DNA of 34,110 nucleotides from a virus. Positions 4,321 to 32,384 of the stretch are shown one piece after another (positions within the stretch are counted from its first letter, which is position 1; the number at the start of each line of letters is the position of its first letter). Both the position numbers and the translations under genes were made by a program. Location of the stretch: IMG/VR virus record IMGVR_UViG_3300023301_000047, positions 1 to 34,110 of that record, one strand, 5' to 3'. The notes under the pieces were generated by a model. The model was not told where the DNA came from. It ran no database searches and saw only the letters and a list, made by a program, of their open reading frames with translations.

Positions 4321-6198
4321 GTGGCGCTCGTAATTGGCGGTAAGCGGGTCACTAAAGCAAAAAACATTCCACCGAAACCGTCACCGTTAGAACAGTCTCT
4401 GATTAACGCTATCGTTTCAGTGAATGAGGGTTTCATTAACAGGGTTGACGTTGATGCTTTAGCCGCCGCTATACAGGGTCTTAACCCAGACAATTTTAAT
4501 AAACTTTTGGATGAAGTTTTGTTGTATCAGGATCTTGATGTTTTGATTAAGGATTCTTTACGCCGTATTGTTTTGTCGGGTGCCACAAGTGAGGCTCGCA
4601 GTATTATTCGTAACGCTCCTCGTGTGGGGCAAAACCCAATGTTGGCGTTGGAATACGGGGGTAAAGTTTTACCTAATGGAATTATTTTGCCGGGATCTGC
4701 ACCCTCTTTTCCTGATGTGATGTTTTCTATCGTTGGCCCCGTTGACCGCATGTTTACTTACATGAACGCTAACGCGGTTGCTTACGCAGCGACACGTTCG
4801 TCACAATTGATTCGTTCTATTGATAATTCTAATCGTGTTGCGATACAAAAACTGATCACTCAATCGTTTACCACACCAAGATCCGTTGACGATACAGCCC
4901 GTCTTATTCGACGGATTATTGGTTTACATCCTCGCTGGGCTTTAGCAGTTGAAAGGTTTCATGACAATAATTTTCGGCATTTTATCAAGGAAGGGATAGA
5001 AACTAATCGTGCTTTTGATATGGCTGATGCTATGGCCGAAAAATATCGGGCTAAGTTGATTCGTAGTAGGGCGCGAACGATTGCACGGACGGAGATTCAG
5101 CAGGCACAAAACTTTGGTAGGGAAGCGTCTTGGAAGGCTTCAGATAGGGCTGGGTTACTTGATGCGCGTTCGGAGAAAGAATGGCGCACGGCACCCGTGG
5201 CAAGCCGTTATGGGCCGCCGTGTCCTATCTGCATGGATTTGAGGGGGACTAGGGTTCCGTGGAATGGGGTTTTCGCTAACGGGAGTTCAATGCCTCCTGC
5301 TCACCCTAATTGTCGTTGCACAGCCGTTTTGGTGCCTCCTACTCGTGGTTTGACTGGTTTACCTTCTCAGGATATGGGTGCTTGGATTGATCGGCTTGAT
5401 GCTTTGGAGGCTGAGCAGATTCGTGAGTTGAATGACGAGCAGGTTCCGGGTGCTGCTTTACAGATAGAAATACTGACGAAGCATTATCAAGGCAAGCATG
5501 ACCAGAAAACGCATGGTAGTTGGAGTTTGGGAACAGGGCTTGATTCTATGCCGTATAAGTGGAATCCTCCAAAGCGACGCGGTGTGAATGAAATGTCAGA
5601 TGATAGATTTAAGGCTAATTTAGATAAATTTGAGAGTGTCGCGCAAGATCCTATTGCTATCCGTATGACGGGTGATCGGCTAGATAAAATAATTGCGGAC
5701 GGTAGATTTAAGAGTATAAAGGAAGGCACCAGATCAGGAAGTGCTTTCGACTCTCACTTACAGGCACGGGTTGAGTTGGAAAACAATACTTGGGGTGTGC
5801 CTAAAGATGGGGTTCAACCTATGTACGGGTATTTAGAAACGACGTATGGCGGGCACAGGCCACAAGTACATTATTACGGACGTGTGAAGATAGTTTTGAA
5901 AGATAGTGTGGCAGGGAGATCCACATTTACTGCCGGTGACAGTCTAAATAATGGGCTTATTCCTGTGTCGATAACAGATGCCAGAAATCGAAATATAAGT
6001 AATCTAGCAATCGGGGGAGCATATGTAGGTTATTCAAATCGGGATACTGAGTCGGGCGTAGATTATTATGAGGTTCAAGTTCATGGGGGAATTTCTTTAT
6101 CCGATATTAAGTACGTTACATCTGACGGTAAAGAAATTGGTCAAGCCTCAGTCAACGCTCTTAAAGAAAATGGGATTGAGGTCTTTGGAAATGACTGA
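4321..6198 (+). CDS. MuF head morphogenesis protein fused to a DUF3626-like domain
   Basis: The GTG start at 4321 follows GGAGGAA at six bases. Residues 1-240 are helical. Residues 245-340 are a MuF domain: ARTIARTE, CPIC (301-304) and PPAHPNCRC (325-333). MuF proteins bind the portal region and enter the head in small copy number. At residue 387 there is a KHYQGKHDQKTHG motif, followed by about 220 residues resembling DUF3626: EGTRSGSAFDSH, YGYLE, LKDSVAGRSTFTAGDSL and YYEVQVHGGISL. The same domain occurs again in the gene at 7078. MuF proteins with C-terminal toxin-like domains are an established phage arrangement; the biochemical activity of this one is not known. Confidence 0.85.
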   Translation: MALVIGGKRVTKAKNIPPKPSPLEQSLINAIVSVNEGFINRVDVDALAAAIQGLNPDNFNKLLDEVLLYQDLDVLIKDSLRRIVLSGATSEARSIIRNAPRVGQNPMLALEYGGKVLPNGIILPGSAPSFPDVMFSIVGPVDRMFTYMNANAVAYAATRSSQLIRSIDNSNRVAIQKLITQSFTTPRSVDDTARLIRRIIGLHPRWALAVERFHDNNFRHFIKEGIETNRAFDMADAMAEKYRAKLIRSRARTIARTEIQQAQNFGREASWKASDRAGLLDARSEKEWRTAPVASRYGPPCPICMDLRGTRVPWNGVFANGSSMPPAHPNCRCTAVLVPPTRGLTGLPSQDMGAWIDRLDALEAEQIRELNDEQVPGAALQIEILTKHYQGKHDQKTHGSWSLGTGLDSMPYKWNPPKRRGVNEMSDDRFKANLDKFESVAQDPIAIRMTGDRLDKIIADGRFKSIKEGTRSGSAFDSHLQARVELENNTWGVPKDGVQPMYGYLETTYGGHRPQVHYYGRVKIVLKDSVAGRSTFTAGDSLNNGLIPVSITDARNRNISNLAIGGAYVGYSNRDTESGVDYYEVQVHGGISLSDIKYVTSDGKEIGQASVNALKENGIEVFGND

Positions 6199-26009: not shown

Positions 26010-26222
26010 GTGCCGTACAAGGTACTTACAGGATTGTCTTACCCGCCGGATAAACGTGCTGAGGTGGGATCCATTGTTGATGATATTCCTGCGAAATCAG
26101 TTAAGTGGCTGTTGGAAAAAGGCCATATTGAAAGTGTCGGTGCTACTTCTAGTGCCAAAATTGCTTCTGATTTTAAGGTAAACATAATCACGGAGCCTGT
26201 TGCCAAGGATGGTGAAAAGTAA
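26010..26222 (+). CDS. Small phage protein before the tail tube genes (70 aa)
   Basis: The GTG start follows AGGAGG (25999-26004) at five bases. The product contains VLTGLSYPPDKRAEVGSIVDDIP followed by KSVKWLLEKGHIESVG, a pattern of short actinophage proteins found between connector and tail genes; their role is unknown. The stop abuts the tail tube ATG (TAATG). Confidence 0.72.
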   Translation: MPYKVLTGLSYPPDKRAEVGSIVDDIPAKSVKWLLEKGHIESVGATSSAKIASDFKVNIITEPVAKDGEK

Positions 26223-26941
26223 TGGCTTTTATTCACGGAAAAAATACAGCCGTTTTTGTTAACGGATCTAACCTTTCTTCTTATTTTAATGACTCTAGTG
26301 TTTCTCAAGACGTTGAAGTTGCTGAAACAACTACTTTTGGTAGTAACGCTAAAACGTACATAACTGGTTTGAGGGACGGAACCATGAGTGCTGACGGCAT
26401 GTTTGACGGAGCGTTAGGAGCAGTTGACAATGTTCTCTCTGGCATAATTGGTTCTACGGCTGCTGACGTGGTTTCGATGCTTCCAGAGGGTGCTGTTGCT
26501 GGAAAACCTTCGTACTCCGCTGCTGCGCGGGAAACTTCCTATGAAGTTTCTAGCCCAGTTGGGGATGTTGTTTCGGCAAGTATGGAAGTGCAAGCAACTG
26601 GCGGTATTGACCGGGGTTTAGTTCTTATCGGTCTTTCTGCTGTGTCAACAGTTTCTAATTCGAGTTCAATAGATAACGCTGCGGGTACTTCCAATGGTGG
26701 GGTTGGTTACTTACACGTCACTTCAAACACTCGTAACGGTTTGACAGCCTTTTCGGTTCAGGATAGCGCCGATAACATTACTTTCGCTGATTTAGTTACG
26801 TTTACAAGCGTATCTACTTTGACGACAGGCGGCGAACGTATCGCCGTTTCAGGTTCGGTGGGTAGATATGTACGCACCGAAGTAACCCCCGGAGGTTCTT
26901 CCGGGTCAGTCACCTACACAATGGCGTTTGCCCGGAAATAA
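26222..26941 (+). CDS. Tail tube protein paralogue with extra C-terminal domain (239 aa)
   Basis: The N-terminal 140 residues have the tail tube pattern: MAFIHGKNTAVFVNGSNL, DVEVAETTTFGSNAKTYITGL and DGTMSADGMFDGA. They align well with the next gene. Residues about 150-239 are an added beta-sandwich, probably Ig-like (YLHVTSNTRNGL, FSVQDSADNITFADLVTF, GRYVRTEV), which in other phages projects from the tail surface. This suggests a decorated tube subunit or a specialised tail-tip or terminator subunit. It could be the main tube protein; the sequence does not settle which copy dominates. Confidence 0.78.
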   Translation: MAFIHGKNTAVFVNGSNLSSYFNDSSVSQDVEVAETTTFGSNAKTYITGLRDGTMSADGMFDGALGAVDNVLSGIIGSTAADVVSMLPEGAVAGKPSYSAAARETSYEVSSPVGDVVSASMEVQATGGIDRGLVLIGLSAVSTVSNSSSIDNAAGTSNGGVGYLHVTSNTRNGLTAFSVQDSADNITFADLVTFTSVSTLTTGGERIAVSGSVGRYVRTEVTPGGSSGSVTYTMAFARK

Positions 26942-26952
26942 GGAGGAGCCTA

Positions 26953-27381
26953 ATGGCTTTTACACATGGTAAGAAATCGGTAATTAAAGTTGATAACTCG
27001 TCAGGAACACTTACAGACATTAGTGCTTTCTGCGAGGATGTAAGTCTTTCACGAGATATTGAAACCGCTGAAGTAACGACTTTCGGTAATAACGCTAAGG
27101 CGTACATTACTGGTTTGACGGACGCTACTATTTCGTTTAGTGGCAAGTTTGACGCTGCCAGTGCTACCGCTATTGATCCTGTTCTTACAGGGATTCTTGG
27201 TCAAGATGCCACAGTTTCGTGGGCTTACCGGATCAGTAGTGCCGTAGTTGGTGCCACAAACCCTGAGTACCAAGGTGAAGGTATTCTTACTTCATATGAG
27301 GTTTCGGGTGGAGTTGGGGATGCTGTTACTTTCTCCGCTGAACTTCAATGCACGGGTGTAATCACTCGCGCTGTTGCTTAA
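26953..27381 (+). CDS. Tail tube protein paralogue, short form (142 aa)
   Basis: The ATG follows AAGGAGGAGCCTA, a very strong ribosome binding site. The product matches the previous gene from end to end of its tube domain: MAFTHGKKSVIKV, DIETAEVTTFGNNAKAYITGL and DATISFSGKFDAA, ending in TSYEVSGGVGDAVTFSAELQCTGVI. It lacks the Ig-like extension. Tandem long and short tube genes imply either mixed tails or one specialised copy. Confidence 0.8.
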   Translation: MAFTHGKKSVIKVDNSSGTLTDISAFCEDVSLSRDIETAEVTTFGNNAKAYITGLTDATISFSGKFDAASATAIDPVLTGILGQDATVSWAYRISSAVVGATNPEYQGEGILTSYEVSGGVGDAVTFSAELQCTGVITRAVA

Positions 27382-27430
27382 CCTGTAAGTCCTAATCGTG
27401 GGCCAAGTGCCCCTTACGGAAAGAGAAAAA

Positions 27431-27802
27431 GTGTCCTTACGCGAAAAGATTTTGGCTGCGGAAGATATTGAGTCGGAAATGGTTGAAGTCCCAGAATGGG
27501 GTGTCACTGTTGAAGTTCGAGGAATGAACGGTGCTGATCGTTCACGGATTTTGGAAGCGGCGGCATCTAGTGAAGATGGAAAAGTCAGTGTCGGTTCTAT
27601 GTATGGCGAGACTGTAATCGCTTCTACTTACGATCCCGAAACGGGTGAAAGAGTATTTACGAGTTCCGATTTTGATTCCTTAATGGCTAAGAGTGCGTCC
27701 GCAATTGACCGTTTGGCTACGGTTGGGATGCGTATGTCTGCGATGGATAAAGAGGCGACCGACGAAGCGAAGGTCACGTTTCCTGAAGAATCCGCATCGT
27801 AG
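27431..27802 (+). CDS. Tail assembly chaperone, gpG-like (123 aa)
   Basis: An open frame begins at a GTG at 27398, but a GTG at 27431 has GGAAAGAG five bases upstream and gives MSLREKILAAEDI...VPEWGVTVEVRGMNGADR, the usual start of this family. The protein assists tape measure folding and tube assembly. The frame ends in TAG at 27800, while an overlapping downstream frame carries the typical second domain, so a fused product is expected by ribosomal frameshifting. It lies between tube and tape measure genes as usual. Confidence 0.8.
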   Translation: MSLREKILAAEDIESEMVEVPEWGVTVEVRGMNGADRSRILEAAASSEDGKVSVGSMYGETVIASTYDPETGERVFTSSDFDSLMAKSASAIDRLATVGMRMSAMDKEATDEAKVTFPEESAS

Positions 27803-27965
27803 GTTTCTGTTTGAGTTAGCAGAAAAACTTGGTCGAACGGTGGGTGAGTTGCTTTATGGCTCGTCTTCTTACAGGCCGATCACTTCGTCTGAATTAACGG
27901 AGTGGTCGGCATTGTGGGAGTTGAGGGCGTATGAGTCTGAGAAGGCTTCAAGACGTAGGAATTGA
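27783..27965 (+). CDS. gpT-like extension of the chaperone, made by +1 frameshift
   Basis: This frame has no own start with a ribosome binding site and encodes RRFLFELAEKLGRTVGELL...TSSELTEWSALWELRAYE, the typical C-terminal half of the gpGT fusion. It lies in the +1 frame (or -2) relative to the chaperone. At 27779-27782 TTTC would let tRNA-Phe slip from TTT to TTC, then read CTG AAG, which makes this the best shift site visible. The fusion would span 27431-27965. Confidence 0.7.
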   Translation: MKNPHRRFLFELAEKLGRTVGELLYGSSSYRPITSSELTEWSALWELRAYESEKASRRRN

Positions 27966-27980: not shown

Positions 27981-30900
27981 GTGACTCAAGTAACTGTTGA
28001 GGCTAAATATATTGCGGATACTTCTCAGTATGTGGCTGCTCTCCGTGCTGCCGCTAAAGCGACTACGGATCTTGCTAATCAAATTCCTGCCACAATAACT
28101 GGTCAAAATGCTATGGGTAAATCTTCTCGCCAGATGGGTGCCTCTGCTCAAGAAGCGGGTAAGGGTTTTACGGTCTTAAAGAACATTATGGGTACTGCTC
28201 TTGGTATTCAGGCGGTTGGTGCTTTTAATAAACTTACAAGTGGAATTAAAGGTTTCACTAAAGAGTCGTTTAATGCTGCTGCTCGTTCTCAAGAACTTGA
28301 TATTGCTATGGTGGCTATTGGTACGTCCACGGGTATCGGTAAAACTGCTTTAATGGATGCTACTAAAGAAATTCGTGCTATGGGTATTGAGTTAGGTGCC
28401 TCTCAACAGATTGCTATTGAGTTCGCTCAGAATCAGTTGGATTTGGCTTCTGCTTCTAAGGTTGCTCGTGTCGCTCAGGATCTCGCTGTTATCGCGGGTC
28501 AAAACTCTACCCAAACAACAATGATTTTAACTCAAGCGATTATTACTGGTAACTCCATGTTACTTAAATCTGCTGGTATTAGCCGTCTAGCGAGCGAGGG
28601 TTACGCTGAATACGCTAAAGAGATAGGTAAATCGGAGGGTCAACTTTCTTCTATGGAACGGCAACAAGCCGTAACTAATCTTATATTAAAAGAGGGTAAG
28701 AAGGTCGCTGGAACTTACGAGGGAGCGATGAGTTCAGCCGGTAAAGTTATGCGTTCTTTCGCAAGAATCATTAACGATATACAGATTGAGGTTGGTAAAG
28801 TTCTTCTTTCGGCTTTAGGCCCACTGATTTTGTCTACATACGATTTGTTGAAGGCTTTTAGTAAAACAACTCAGAAAGGTGGCGCTTTATCGGGAACCCT
28901 TGGAACTTTAGCAACAACTTTTGAGAATCTTTCTACCCCTCTTGTGGAATTTATTAGAGGTCTTATTGAGTCCGTTCAATCTGGTGAAGCAATGAAAAGT
29001 CTTTCTGACACTATCAATGGGATGATCCCAGTTTTTCTTGATTTGTTTGAGATAGTTAAATCACTGGGAATGGTTATGTATAGCATGTTGGTTCCTGCTT
29101 TGCAGGCACTCGCTCCTTTGTTTGCTGCGATTGCGGGTGCCGTTCGTCCCATAGTTGAATTCTTTACCAAGTTACCCACCCCTGTTAAGACTGCTATTGG
29201 TGCGCTAATTTTGTTCCGTTTTGTTTTGACAAAAATGACGGCTGCCGCTGCTGCAAACGCAACTGGATTGGCTGCTTCATTTTTTAGAATGAGTGCTTCC
29301 ATTAAATTAAGCCTTGCAACTATCCGTGCCAATATCGTAACAACTGGTTTTTCGTTTAAGACTTTTGGGATTCTTGCTAAAACGATGGGTGTTTCAGTTG
29401 CTGCTAGTTTCAGGGCTATTGGTGGGGCTGCTAAAGGACTAATGGCAAGTATTGGCCCCGTTGGCTTGGCGATTGTTGCCGCGACGGTTGCTTTTGAATA
29501 CTTTAGCGGCAAGTCTGCGAAGCAGGAAGAATTGATTGGATCACTAAAAACCTCTGTTGACGAGTTGACTGGTGCCTACAACGAACTTGGTTATGCTACT
29601 GCTTCAGCAAAGTTTCGTTTGGACTTTTCTAATGAGGATGTTGCCCAACTTGAGGCAATGGGAATTTCTATTGCAAGCATGTCGGAAGCGGCACTTGCTG
29701 GTGGGGATGCTGCTAAGGCATACGGAAATAAACTTAAAGACCTATCACTTGCTGCTGGTGGAATCTTTACTCCCTCTGGGGAACTTGTAACAGAAGTGAT
29801 AGGATCATTTAATGAATTGGTTGCTGCTAGTGCTGCAACTCATGATTCATTAAAGAAAGACGCATTAGCCGTCGCTGACGCTCAAATAATTGCCAACAAA
29901 AAGGCTTACGCATCGTATGAGTTAACGAGGGCGAAAGAAATTTCGGCGGCTACGGCGCTTCGTAGAGAGTCAGCAAAAATGATCGTGAGTTCCGATGTTG
30001 CGTCTCGTAAAGTTGCTGAGGGTGCCCGTATTATGGCTGCCGCCCATGACACTGCAAAAATCGCAATTCTTGCGGTGGATACGGCTCTCCGCAAAATAGG
30101 TAAGACTATTAGTAGAGAGGCTTCTTACGATAATGCTCGTGAGGGTATTATTAAACTTTCTGAAGAACTCAAAAAGGGTAAGAAAGATATTACTGGGTAT
30201 TCTCAGGGTGCTTTGGATAACCGTAAAGCGATTCGTGACGCGGCTCAGGGTTACATTGATTACGCTAATAGCCTGAAGGATCCTGTTAAGCGCCAAGATG
30301 CTTTGGCTGAGGGAACTAAAAAAATAACTAAGGCTTTGCAGGATCAAAACATAAATGTTAAAGATTCCAAAATTCTTAAAAAGTTGAAAGATGAATCAAA
30401 GCAGTCGGGTCTTACTGTTGATGAGTTCGCTAAGCAAAGAGATATGGCTACGGAGTATGGTCACGATGTCGGTAAAAACTTTATTGCCGGGATCATTAAG
30501 GAACTCGCTGCTGAAAAGAAAGCCGTGGAGACGGCTGCGGCCAATCTTGTGGGTGAAAATGGAATGGTCGGTGCCGTTAATAATGAACTTGGTATTGAAT
30601 CCCCGTCGAAAAAAGCAAGAGAGGTCGCTAAAAACTTTGTTGCAGGTTTAATTATTGGTGTTGAGGAAAACAGGAAACTTGCTAAGCAAAAGGTTAGCGA
30701 GTTGGGTCAGGATGTTCTTGATTCTTTGAATGAAAGAATGCAGGGTGTCACCGATATTTTCAAAACGTCTGGTGATGCTTTTAGGTCTTTCCGTGATTTG
30801 ACTTCTGGGACTGAGGTTAAGTTCGGTGAAATGTCTAAGTTGCAGGAGTCGTTTGGGCGGAACGCTAGTATCGGTCAAATTATTTCTCAGTATGAAGATT

Positions 30901-32384
30901 TGAGTTCAACTTTGAAAGATCTTTATGGCCCTTTGTTGGATATTGATATTGTTGGTAAAAAGGCCGCTAAATCTAATCGTCGGGCAATGAATACTACGCA
31001 AGGTTATCTTGATTCTTTAACTCAACATGCCATTGATTTGTTGAACGACCGTGACAAAGTTCAAAAGGATTTAACTGATCTTGACACGTCTTACGGGGTT
31101 ATTACTGCTGGCATTAACGTGAAGTTTGATGGTTTGGACGAGGCTGCCGCAAATTCTTTGAATGCTATTGAGGAGCGTTACAAGAGTATTATTCCCAGTT
31201 TGGAGGCTGCCCTTGCTGCCGCTAACGCTGCCTATGATCGTGAAAATAGTGTTTTGGAAAAACTTGTTTCTGAGCGGAATAGTTTCTTGCAAAACATTGG
31301 TGATGGTTTCCGTAAATTTGTTAACGATGTAAAGGTTGATGAAGGTTCATCTTTCACTAAATCTTTACAGGATCGCGTAAAAAGTGTTCGTGAGTTCACT
31401 ACTAACATTAAATCTTTGCTTGCTCGCGGTTTAGACCCATCTCTTGTTCAAGATTTTATTGCTGCTGGTGTTGATTCTTCTGGATTGGTTGTTGCGAATC
31501 TTGCTCAGGGTTCTGGCGTGGATATTTCTGCTATTAACGCGGCTCAGGCTGAGTTGGCTGCTTTAACTTCTGATTTTCAAACAACTGCTTCTCAACAGTA
31601 TTTTGATATTGGTATTGCTCAGCAGGAGGCCATTGTTGCTCCTTTGCGTACTGCCGCTCAGCAGGCTCAGAATGCTTTGAACATTTCTCAGGCTGCTCGT
31701 GACACTGAGTTGGCTGCTGCTCAGGCTCATCAAGCGAAGTTAAGTCTTGACAGGAAAAATGAGTTGGCTAAGGCCGACAAGGATTACAAGACTGCTAGGG
31801 ATTCTTTGTTGGCTGATCAGGAAAGAATAAATGGTTTGCTGGATTTAAATGCCGTTAAAATTAACAAGGTTTTCCTTGATTTGAGCGATCCTGAAACGGG
31901 TGTCCCGAAACACATGGATAAACTTGGCAAACAAATAATTAACGGTCTTATTGACGGTTTAGAAGAAAAGTTTCCTAAATTGCGGCTAAAGGCTGAGGCA
32001 ATGGCCGCTATTATTCGGGATACTTTGAAAGATGCTTACCGTATCAACTCTCCGTCTCGCGTTATGGCTACGATGGGTGAGCAGATCGCTATGGGTCTGG
32101 TTATTGGTATGGAGCAGGGAATAAAAGCGATTGAGGGTGCGGCTTTTGATATGTCTGCTGCTGCTACTCCTGAGTTGCCGGGTGTTGGTTACCCGATGAT
32201 GGGGAGTTCTGCTTTGATGGGGGGTTCTGCTGCCACTGGTAATTCTGGTTCTTCTGGTTTTAGTTCAACGTACAACATTACGGTTCAGGCTGGCGTTGGC
32301 GACCCACGCAAAATAGGTCAAGAAGTCGTTGAGTACATTAAAACTTTCGAAAACTCTAACGGCAAAGTTTTTGTGAGCGCGTAA
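27981..32384 (+). CDS. Tape measure protein (1467 aa)
   Basis: The GTG start follows AAGGAGGTGTCAGG. It is among the longest genes and directly follows the chaperone genes. The product is helical and Ala/Lys/Gln-rich, with hydrophobic stretches around residues 365-515 (for example LVPALQALAPLFAAIAGAV and GPVGLAIVAATVAFEYF) and coiled coils in the last third. Two tape-measure-type SPS motifs occur: IESPSKKAREVAKNFVAGL near 873 and NSPSRVMATMGEQIAMGL near 1355. Tape measure proteins set tail length and help DNA entry; at about 0.15 nm per residue the tail would be near 220 nm, a rough estimate. The stop overlaps the next start. Confidence 0.92.
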   Translation: MTQVTVEAKYIADTSQYVAALRAAAKATTDLANQIPATITGQNAMGKSSRQMGASAQEAGKGFTVLKNIMGTALGIQAVGAFNKLTSGIKGFTKESFNAAARSQELDIAMVAIGTSTGIGKTALMDATKEIRAMGIELGASQQIAIEFAQNQLDLASASKVARVAQDLAVIAGQNSTQTTMILTQAIITGNSMLLKSAGISRLASEGYAEYAKEIGKSEGQLSSMERQQAVTNLILKEGKKVAGTYEGAMSSAGKVMRSFARIINDIQIEVGKVLLSALGPLILSTYDLLKAFSKTTQKGGALSGTLGTLATTFENLSTPLVEFIRGLIESVQSGEAMKSLSDTINGMIPVFLDLFEIVKSLGMVMYSMLVPALQALAPLFAAIAGAVRPIVEFFTKLPTPVKTAIGALILFRFVLTKMTAAAAANATGLAASFFRMSASIKLSLATIRANIVTTGFSFKTFGILAKTMGVSVAASFRAIGGAAKGLMASIGPVGLAIVAATVAFEYFSGKSAKQEELIGSLKTSVDELTGAYNELGYATASAKFRLDFSNEDVAQLEAMGISIASMSEAALAGGDAAKAYGNKLKDLSLAAGGIFTPSGELVTEVIGSFNELVAASAATHDSLKKDALAVADAQIIANKKAYASYELTRAKEISAATALRRESAKMIVSSDVASRKVAEGARIMAAAHDTAKIAILAVDTALRKIGKTISREASYDNAREGIIKLSEELKKGKKDITGYSQGALDNRKAIRDAAQGYIDYANSLKDPVKRQDALAEGTKKITKALQDQNINVKDSKILKKLKDESKQSGLTVDEFAKQRDMATEYGHDVGKNFIAGIIKELAAEKKAVETAAANLVGENGMVGAVNNELGIESPSKKAREVAKNFVAGLIIGVEENRKLAKQKVSELGQDVLDSLNERMQGVTDIFKTSGDAFRSFRDLTSGTEVKFGEMSKLQESFGRNASIGQIISQYEDLSSTLKDLYGPLLDIDIVGKKAAKSNRRAMNTTQGYLDSLTQHAIDLLNDRDKVQKDLTDLDTSYGVITAGINVKFDGLDEAAANSLNAIEERYKSIIPSLEAALAAANAAYDRENSVLEKLVSERNSFLQNIGDGFRKFVNDVKVDEGSSFTKSLQDRVKSVREFTTNIKSLLARGLDPSLVQDFIAAGVDSSGLVVANLAQGSGVDISAINAAQAELAALTSDFQTTASQQYFDIGIAQQEAIVAPLRTAAQQAQNALNISQAARDTELAAAQAHQAKLSLDRKNELAKADKDYKTARDSLLADQERINGLLDLNAVKINKVFLDLSDPETGVPKHMDKLGKQIINGLIDGLEEKFPKLRLKAEAMAAIIRDTLKDAYRINSPSRVMATMGEQIAMGLVIGMEQGIKAIEGAAFDMSAAATPELPGVGYPMMGSSALMGGSAATGNSGSSGFSSTYNITVQAGVGDPRKIGQEVVEYIKTFENSNGKVFVSA

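Follow-up and report, generated by a model that had tools for sequence, protein, structure and literature searches.

A tail assembly chaperone gene with a predicted forward frameshift

Two overlapping open reading frames of a bacterial virus are very probably the parts of a single tail assembly chaperone gene, whose long form would be made by a +1 ribosomal frameshift at the tetranucleotide TTTC. The pair is located in an IMG/VR virus record of 34110 bases, which is taken in full and called the window here. The first frame, ORF1 (positions 27398 to 27802, plus strand), encodes the short form of the chaperone (TAC-N) and matches phrog_344 with an E value of 3.3e-23. It is 134 amino acids long from GTG 27398 and 123 from GTG 27431, and the latter, which has GGAAAGAG ahead of it, may be the true start. 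The Pfam family Phage_TAC_1 matches ORF1 below threshold (17.4 bits, cutoff 25). An AlphaFold model of ORF1, derived from 12 input sequences with a mean pLDDT of 74.4 and low values at residues 118-134, finds its best match in the HK97 chaperone 2ob9 (Foldseek E 1.4e-4), with a VIA-align Z score of 11.7 over 100 residues and an rmsd of 4.0 Å.

The second frame was read in the initial annotation as lying +1 relative to the first, and this is indeed its position: ORF2 is open from 27684 to 27965, one base forward relative to ORF1, and the −1 frame is closed, with a single open stretch of 10 codons (27787-27819). The part of ORF2 predicted to be translated (27783 to 27965, plus strand) would add a C-terminal extension (TAC-C) of 60 amino acids. 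Its family match is weak (phrog_337, a tail protein family, E 0.0019), and the assignment draws in addition on conservation and on frame-specific constraint.

Both frames are embedded in a run of tail genes on the plus strand. A first copy of the major tail protein gene (26222 to 26941; phrog_9522, E 8.2e-56) is followed by a second copy directly upstream of ORF1 (26953 to 27381; phrog_10528, E 1e-36), and directly downstream of ORF2 is the gene for a tape measure protein of 1467 amino acids (27981 to 32384; phrog_5493 and other tape measure families). The pair therefore has the gene position of the G/GT type, with the major tail protein genes on one side and the tape measure gene on the other. 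The product of ORF1 belongs to a chaperone family and has, in the model, a chaperone fold, and the C-terminal extension is reached via a frame change, as judged by comparison only. The tandem major tail protein genes of the window are related to each other, with a 66% identity match at the DNA level and overlapping families, and two such genes are also annotated in the phages Salgado, Kovu, Ottawa and Waltz. Elsewhere in the window, between 5479 and 16070, a short motif like KHYQGQHDQKTHGSW recurs 10 times within a MuF-like protein and the large ORFs that follow it. One of these ORFs contains a zeta-toxin domain (E 3.8e-23) and another matches DUF3626, and the region looks like an array of cargo proteins linked by a common tag. 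No tRNA genes were found in the window.

At the proposed site, ORF1 reads ACG TTT CCT GAA. The slippery tetranucleotide, TTT_C, consists of the phenylalanine codon TTT and the first base of the next codon (27779 to 27782). It is preceded by the E-site codon ACG (27776 to 27778) and overlaps the frame-0 A-site codon CCT (27782 to 27784), and the short form ends at the frame-0 stop codon TAG (27800 to 27802), 7 codons after the start of TTTC; all of these features are on the plus strand. The predicted junction is ...VTF followed by LKNPHRRFLFEL, which is the join of VTF to LKNPHR that had been anticipated for this site. A +1 shift at TTT_C would give the Glu-C junction peptide AKVTFLKNPHRRFLFE, whereas the tryptic peptide VTFLK is short.

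Relatives and the frame of ORF2

The relatives came from five protein searches of viral contigs and two phage searches, together with 15 phage regions and the window and its own record. From each of four viral-contig scans the best 80 loci were taken. The resulting sample comprises 363 stretches, many of them repeats of the same contigs. Profiles recognized both ORFs in 356 of these, which reduce to 154 distinct cores of 210 bases. Relative to ORF1, the frame of ORF2 is +1 in 73 of these cores (210 stretches), −1 in the other 81 (146 stretches) and the same in none. Forward shifting in tail chaperones had been described in the initial annotation as known but rarer; known cases do exist, but in this chaperone family, with 73 of 154 cores, it is not rare. 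With 73 distinct +1 cores at hand, a sequencing error that joins the frames can in practice be dismissed.

The stretches in which the profiles found no ORF1/ORF2 pair (L030, L153, L193, L194, L260, L355 and L360) are outside the core counts. On inspection by eye, L355 and L360 are −1 and L030, from the Microcystis phage Mae-JY09, is +1 with TTTC; L153 ends short of ORF2 and L260 begins at ORF2. Among the 15 regions from isolated phages, 12 were scored −1, two are −1 by eye (L355 and L360) and one, Mae-JY09, is +1. No relatives of the window at the DNA level were found in the phage collection, nor were relatives of the Mae-JY09 chaperone found in the viral contigs. A scan for the pattern gave at least 120 places, of which at least 86 are chaperone-like by their +1 frame, and the matches from a scan of genome contigs were two Micromonospora loci only. 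The Micromonospora prophage loci L193 and L194 (about 4960-5135) have a +1 ORF2 but no TTTC, and their candidate sites are AAA_A or CTT_C, which indicates that not every +1 relation among distant relatives is produced via TTT_C.

Conservation of the TTTC site

A comparison of the site among related phages, as the initial annotation had proposed, singles out TTTC. In the reachable part of the overlap, the codons at which a shift would be functional (median 13, minimum 8, 1678 in total), each of the 73 +1 cores has exactly one in-frame TTTC, and none of the 81 −1 cores has any. The next commonest in-frame tetramer is present in 57 of the 73. If kinship is ignored, the reachable codons would be expected to contain about 0.23 occurrences when the remaining parts of these ORF1s set the background (1 in 7358 codons), and about 4 when the genes of the window set it (26 in 10276 codons); the +1 cores are related, not independent.

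The codons around the site vary. In the 73 +1 cores the E-site codon is CGA in 51, ACG in 9, CGG in 6, CAG in 3 and one of four others once each, and the A-site codon is CCT in 64, CCA in 6, CAT in 2 and CTT in 1. Across the 53 distinct contexts from −24 to +33, TTTC is the sole run of four invariant bases, being present in all 53. Two of these four bases occupy a position that is degenerate in one of the frames: for frame 0 it is the last base of TTT, and for frame +1 it is the C. Moreover, the codon at the site is TTT and never TTC, while elsewhere in the +1 cores the TTT:TTC ratio is 82:65 in ORF1 and 94:63 in ORF2.

Change of constraint at the site

To assess which frame is under constraint, the +1 cores were compared in 31 disjoint pairs. 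Over the 18 bases that precede TTTC (−18 to −1), differences at frame-0 codon positions 1, 2 and 3 number 25, 14 and 52, and from TTTC to the ORF1 stop they number 20, 2 and 3. Since the first codon position in frame 0 is the third in frame +1, the constraint switches frame at TTTC. When the changed codons between TTTC and the stop are read in frame 0, 20 are non-synonymous and none is synonymous; when they are read in frame +1, 16 are synonymous and five are non-synonymous. These substitution patterns place the start of ORF2 coding right after TTTC. In the core types of L043 and L051, a +1-frame stop is located directly upstream of ACG TTT C, and there the shift can be no further upstream.

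The same region bears on whether the ribosome might instead shift at the stop codon of ORF1 (TCG_TAG in the window and TCC_TGA in many relatives), in the manner of prfB or antizyme, with TTTC as mere coding sequence. The stop is near the site, 5 codons from TTTC in 46 cores, 7 codons in 22 and 11 codons in five, such that 68 of the 73 have it 5 or 7 codons away, and TCC_TGA resembles the UCC_U antizyme site described in PMC3498833. Nevertheless, the bases from TTTC to the stop are already constrained in the +1 frame, and the +1 residues LxNPxRR are conserved there, with the proline in 73 of 73 cores, and match the fusion of the −1 relatives. The codon before the stop also varies (TCG, TCC, GCG, GTT or ACC among the cores listed). 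We therefore regard a shift at the stop codon as very unlikely.

Even less credible is the idea that ORF2 is a separate gene with its own start and that the two proteins are never fused, as the annotation of two separate proteins in some records (e.g. Mae-JY09 and Dryad) would have it. As far as the site, the open +1 stretch is free of ATG, GTG and TTG in 47 of the 73 +1 cores, and all 73 lack these codons among the 8 that begin with TTC, which cover the LxNPxRR stretch. On the evidence of these codons, an internal start is excluded in most +1 cores; a separate gene would also leave the invariance of TTTC without a reason.

The usual slippage of RNA polymerase requires more than three T nucleotides, and the run of three at the site is too short for it. 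A −2 ribosomal shift, which has been reported for Mu, would reach the same frame, but in most cores tRNA-Phe would then face xGT or xAT, and tRNA-Pro would face TTC, presumably with no cognate pairing. It would also give a different junction, as had been foreseen for a shift of this kind, with one residue more than VTFLKN; with no other invariant run in the 53 contexts that fits either model, −2 shifting or transcriptional slippage is the least credible source of the frame change.

Proposed mechanism and possible stimulators

In the favoured +1 shift at TTTC, most ribosomes would translate ORF1 and terminate at TAG 27800. In a minority, the P-site peptidyl-tRNA-Phe would move one base forward from UUU onto UUC, which the GAA anticodon of tRNA-Phe is expected to read better than UUU. 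Such ribosomes would then read the +1 frame to TGA 27965 and make a long form, ...VTF followed by LKNPHRRFLFELAEKLGRTVGELLYGS..., of 188 amino acids from GTG 27398 or 177 from GTG 27431. Re-pairing of tRNA-Phe from TTT to TTC was the mechanism suggested in the initial annotation, and a P-site slip of this kind is the most likely one from the comparison with relatives. By analogy with lambda gpG and gpGT, coating of the tape measure protein would presumably fall to the short form, and the long form, the less abundant of the two, might recruit the major tail protein.

Several types of stimulator were sought. A Shine-Dalgarno-like element upstream, as in prfB, was not found in a crude energy test, in which 3 of 53 contexts were more stable than the mean of their own shuffles; shuffled sequences pair more strongly with the anti-Shine-Dalgarno sequence than the real ones upstream of TTTC do, which is the opposite of enrichment. 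Codon usage in 29 chosen ORFs of the window likewise gave no sign of a rare codon in the A site: CCT is the commonest proline codon there (185 occurrences, 18.0 per 1000), and CTG, the +1 codon, is less frequent (58 occurrences, 5.6 per 1000), which speaks against a hungry A site.

A 3′ structure common to the family was not found in the 73 +1 cores, for which the mean z score is 0.14 over 45 nucleotides and −0.07 over 80, with control values of −1.15 upstream and −0.68 further downstream. The corresponding means for the −1 cores are −0.58 and −1.26 (controls −0.73 and −0.09), and over 80 nucleotides these cores tend towards a downstream structure stronger than chance. In the window itself, the 3′ folds have z scores of −2.16 over 60 nucleotides and −1.33 over 90, and because of the value for the 60-nucleotide stretch a local hairpin may be present at its site. 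Other single folds gave −2.80 (L137), −1.31 (L016), −0.74 (L065) and 0.03 (L089) for +1 members and −3.26 (L021) and −3.47 (L091) for −1 members.

Reversal of shift direction within the family

That the window departs from the usual −1 heptamer, as the initial annotation had remarked, is correct: with ORF2 in the +1 frame and the −1 frame closed, it does not carry an X_XXY_YYZ cassette for −1 shifting. Its relatives alongside do use one and make a closely similar fusion. GGGAAAA or GGGAAAC is present in 76 of the 81 −1 cores. Five −1 cores lack GGGAAA(A/C), and three of these (L028, L031 and L361) are without any X_XXY_YYZ heptamer in the overlap; these three are from named phages, Thermobifida phage P1312 and Rhodococcus phages REQ1 and Madraxi.

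When the fusion proteins are aligned, the last frame-0 residue falls in column 139 in all 73 +1 cores, and in column 137 (67 cores) or 138 (9 cores) in 76 −1 cores. The +1 junction thus follows the −1 junction by one or two residues, which suggests that the shift was both moved and reversed while its product was kept. For example, the predicted −1 fusion of L091 reads ...DEMGK followed by RFLANPDRRFLFELAEKLGRTV, and the +1 fusion of L089 reads ...DEAGKRF followed by LTHPHRRFLFELAEKLGRTV. The Gly-Lys pair that the −1 slippery site encodes is kept before the junction in 15 of the 73 +1 cores, and the window has KVTF at this place.

Comparison of the two groups indicates that the direction of shifting has been reversed at least once in this chaperone family. 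Trees built from columns away from the site need four changes of direction, with either 141 or 131 rows, of which the starred branches force only one. The 131-row tree leaves out the distant −1 members L357, L358, L359, L028, L024, L023, L027, L032, L031 and L361; with the 131 rows kept, a single +1 clade is not rejected (p-AU 0.556), and the tree that holds this clade together is 2.99 log units better. Judged by these sequence-based trees, neither one switch nor several is demonstrated. The −1 state is likely the older one, because nearly all regions from isolated phages (14 of 15) read −1.

Comparison with known frameshifting systems

Tail chaperone shifts are usually −1, according to PMC5009743, in which the shift in HSTV-2 is termed very likely +1. 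Like lambda gpG/gpGT as described in that source, the window has a pair located between tail tube and tape measure genes with a predicted two-product logic, and its ORF1 has the predicted fold of the HK97 chaperone; unlike lambda, which shifts −1 at X_XXY_YYZ, it would shift +1 at TTT_C. The −1 members of its own family (L020-L022; Arthrobacter phages Salgado, Kovu and Waltz) have homologous ORF1 and ORF2 and a closely similar fusion, but their −1 shift, at GGGAAA(A/C), comes one or two residues sooner in the fusion. HSTV-2 and the Listeria phages PSA, A118 and A500 resemble the window in having forward shifts in structural or tail-assembly genes of tailed viruses. In the Listeria phages, related structural genes use +1 or −1, and the direction differs between phages in the coat protein genes, whereas the PSA-type shift differs from that of the window in occurring on CCC, in coat or tail-shaft genes (PMC5009743).

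The site has closer parallels elsewhere. For the HF1-group haloviruses, PMC7230728 proposes a TTT-CGC motif as the +1 site of the chaperone pair, and the idea of a TTT_C chaperone shift is hence not new. Those viruses are archaeal, with CGC in the A site, and the motif was only proposed, from six aligned genomes. In influenza A virus PA-X (UCC_UUU_CGU), PMC3498833 argues that tRNA-Phe pairs better with UUC than with UUU and would gain by moving forward while the A site is empty, and it reports that the site and direction were shown by mass spectrometry. PA-X and the window are alike in their P-site slippage on UUU_C (predicted, in the window) and in having no obvious stimulator; they differ in that PA-X involves a eukaryotic ribosome, an unrelated gene and a CGN codon in the A site, where the window has CCU. 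An in-frame UUU followed by C is present where the frame changes in all 73 +1 cores, in agreement with the constraint boundary, and the preference for CGN in the A site is absent from these cores. We conclude that the predicted shift would work like the UUU_C (PA-X type) class; strict membership is not claimed, CGN being a preference.

Mae-JY09 (PP395641) has the in-frame sequence CGA_TTT_CCT_GAG (L030:1813-1816) and a chaperone-like ORF2 in the +1 frame, as in the window; it is distant (27.8% identity), has 70.7% G+C in the fetched stretch, and is annotated with two hypothetical proteins.

Neither a bacterial phage chaperone with a TTT_C +1 site nor a chaperone family whose shift changed direction was found among the papers that our literature searches listed. 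As far as these searches show, three things are new: a TTT_C shift predicted in a large family of bacterial phages whose A-site codon is CCT and not CGN, a proof of the site by sequence comparison, and the apparent reversal of direction with the product kept.

Implications

Forward shifts are poorly predicted, with no agreed general motif according to the PRFect paper. PRFect itself has the rule that the +1 A-site codon must be commoner than the frame-0 codon. With CTG (58) rarer than CCT (185) in the window, PRFect would probably miss the TTTC site. Recognition of the site benefits annotation, as ORF2 is otherwise labelled a separate or hypothetical gene.

We put forward tentatively, at a little under an even chance, the broader reading that the chaperone family replaced −1 shifting at GGGAAA(A/C) by +1 shifting at a TTT_C that lies one or two codons further downstream and left the fusion almost unchanged, and that TTT_C with little else is a general minimal +1 signal in bacterial phages, haloarchaeal viruses and eukaryotic RNA viruses. 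The family offers a clade of 73 distinct sequences with one invariant four-base site, beside 81 backward-shifting relatives with a similar product. Two questions are thereby made testable: what a minimal +1 site needs in bacteria, and whether it is the ratio and the fused protein, rather than the direction of the shift, that are under selection.
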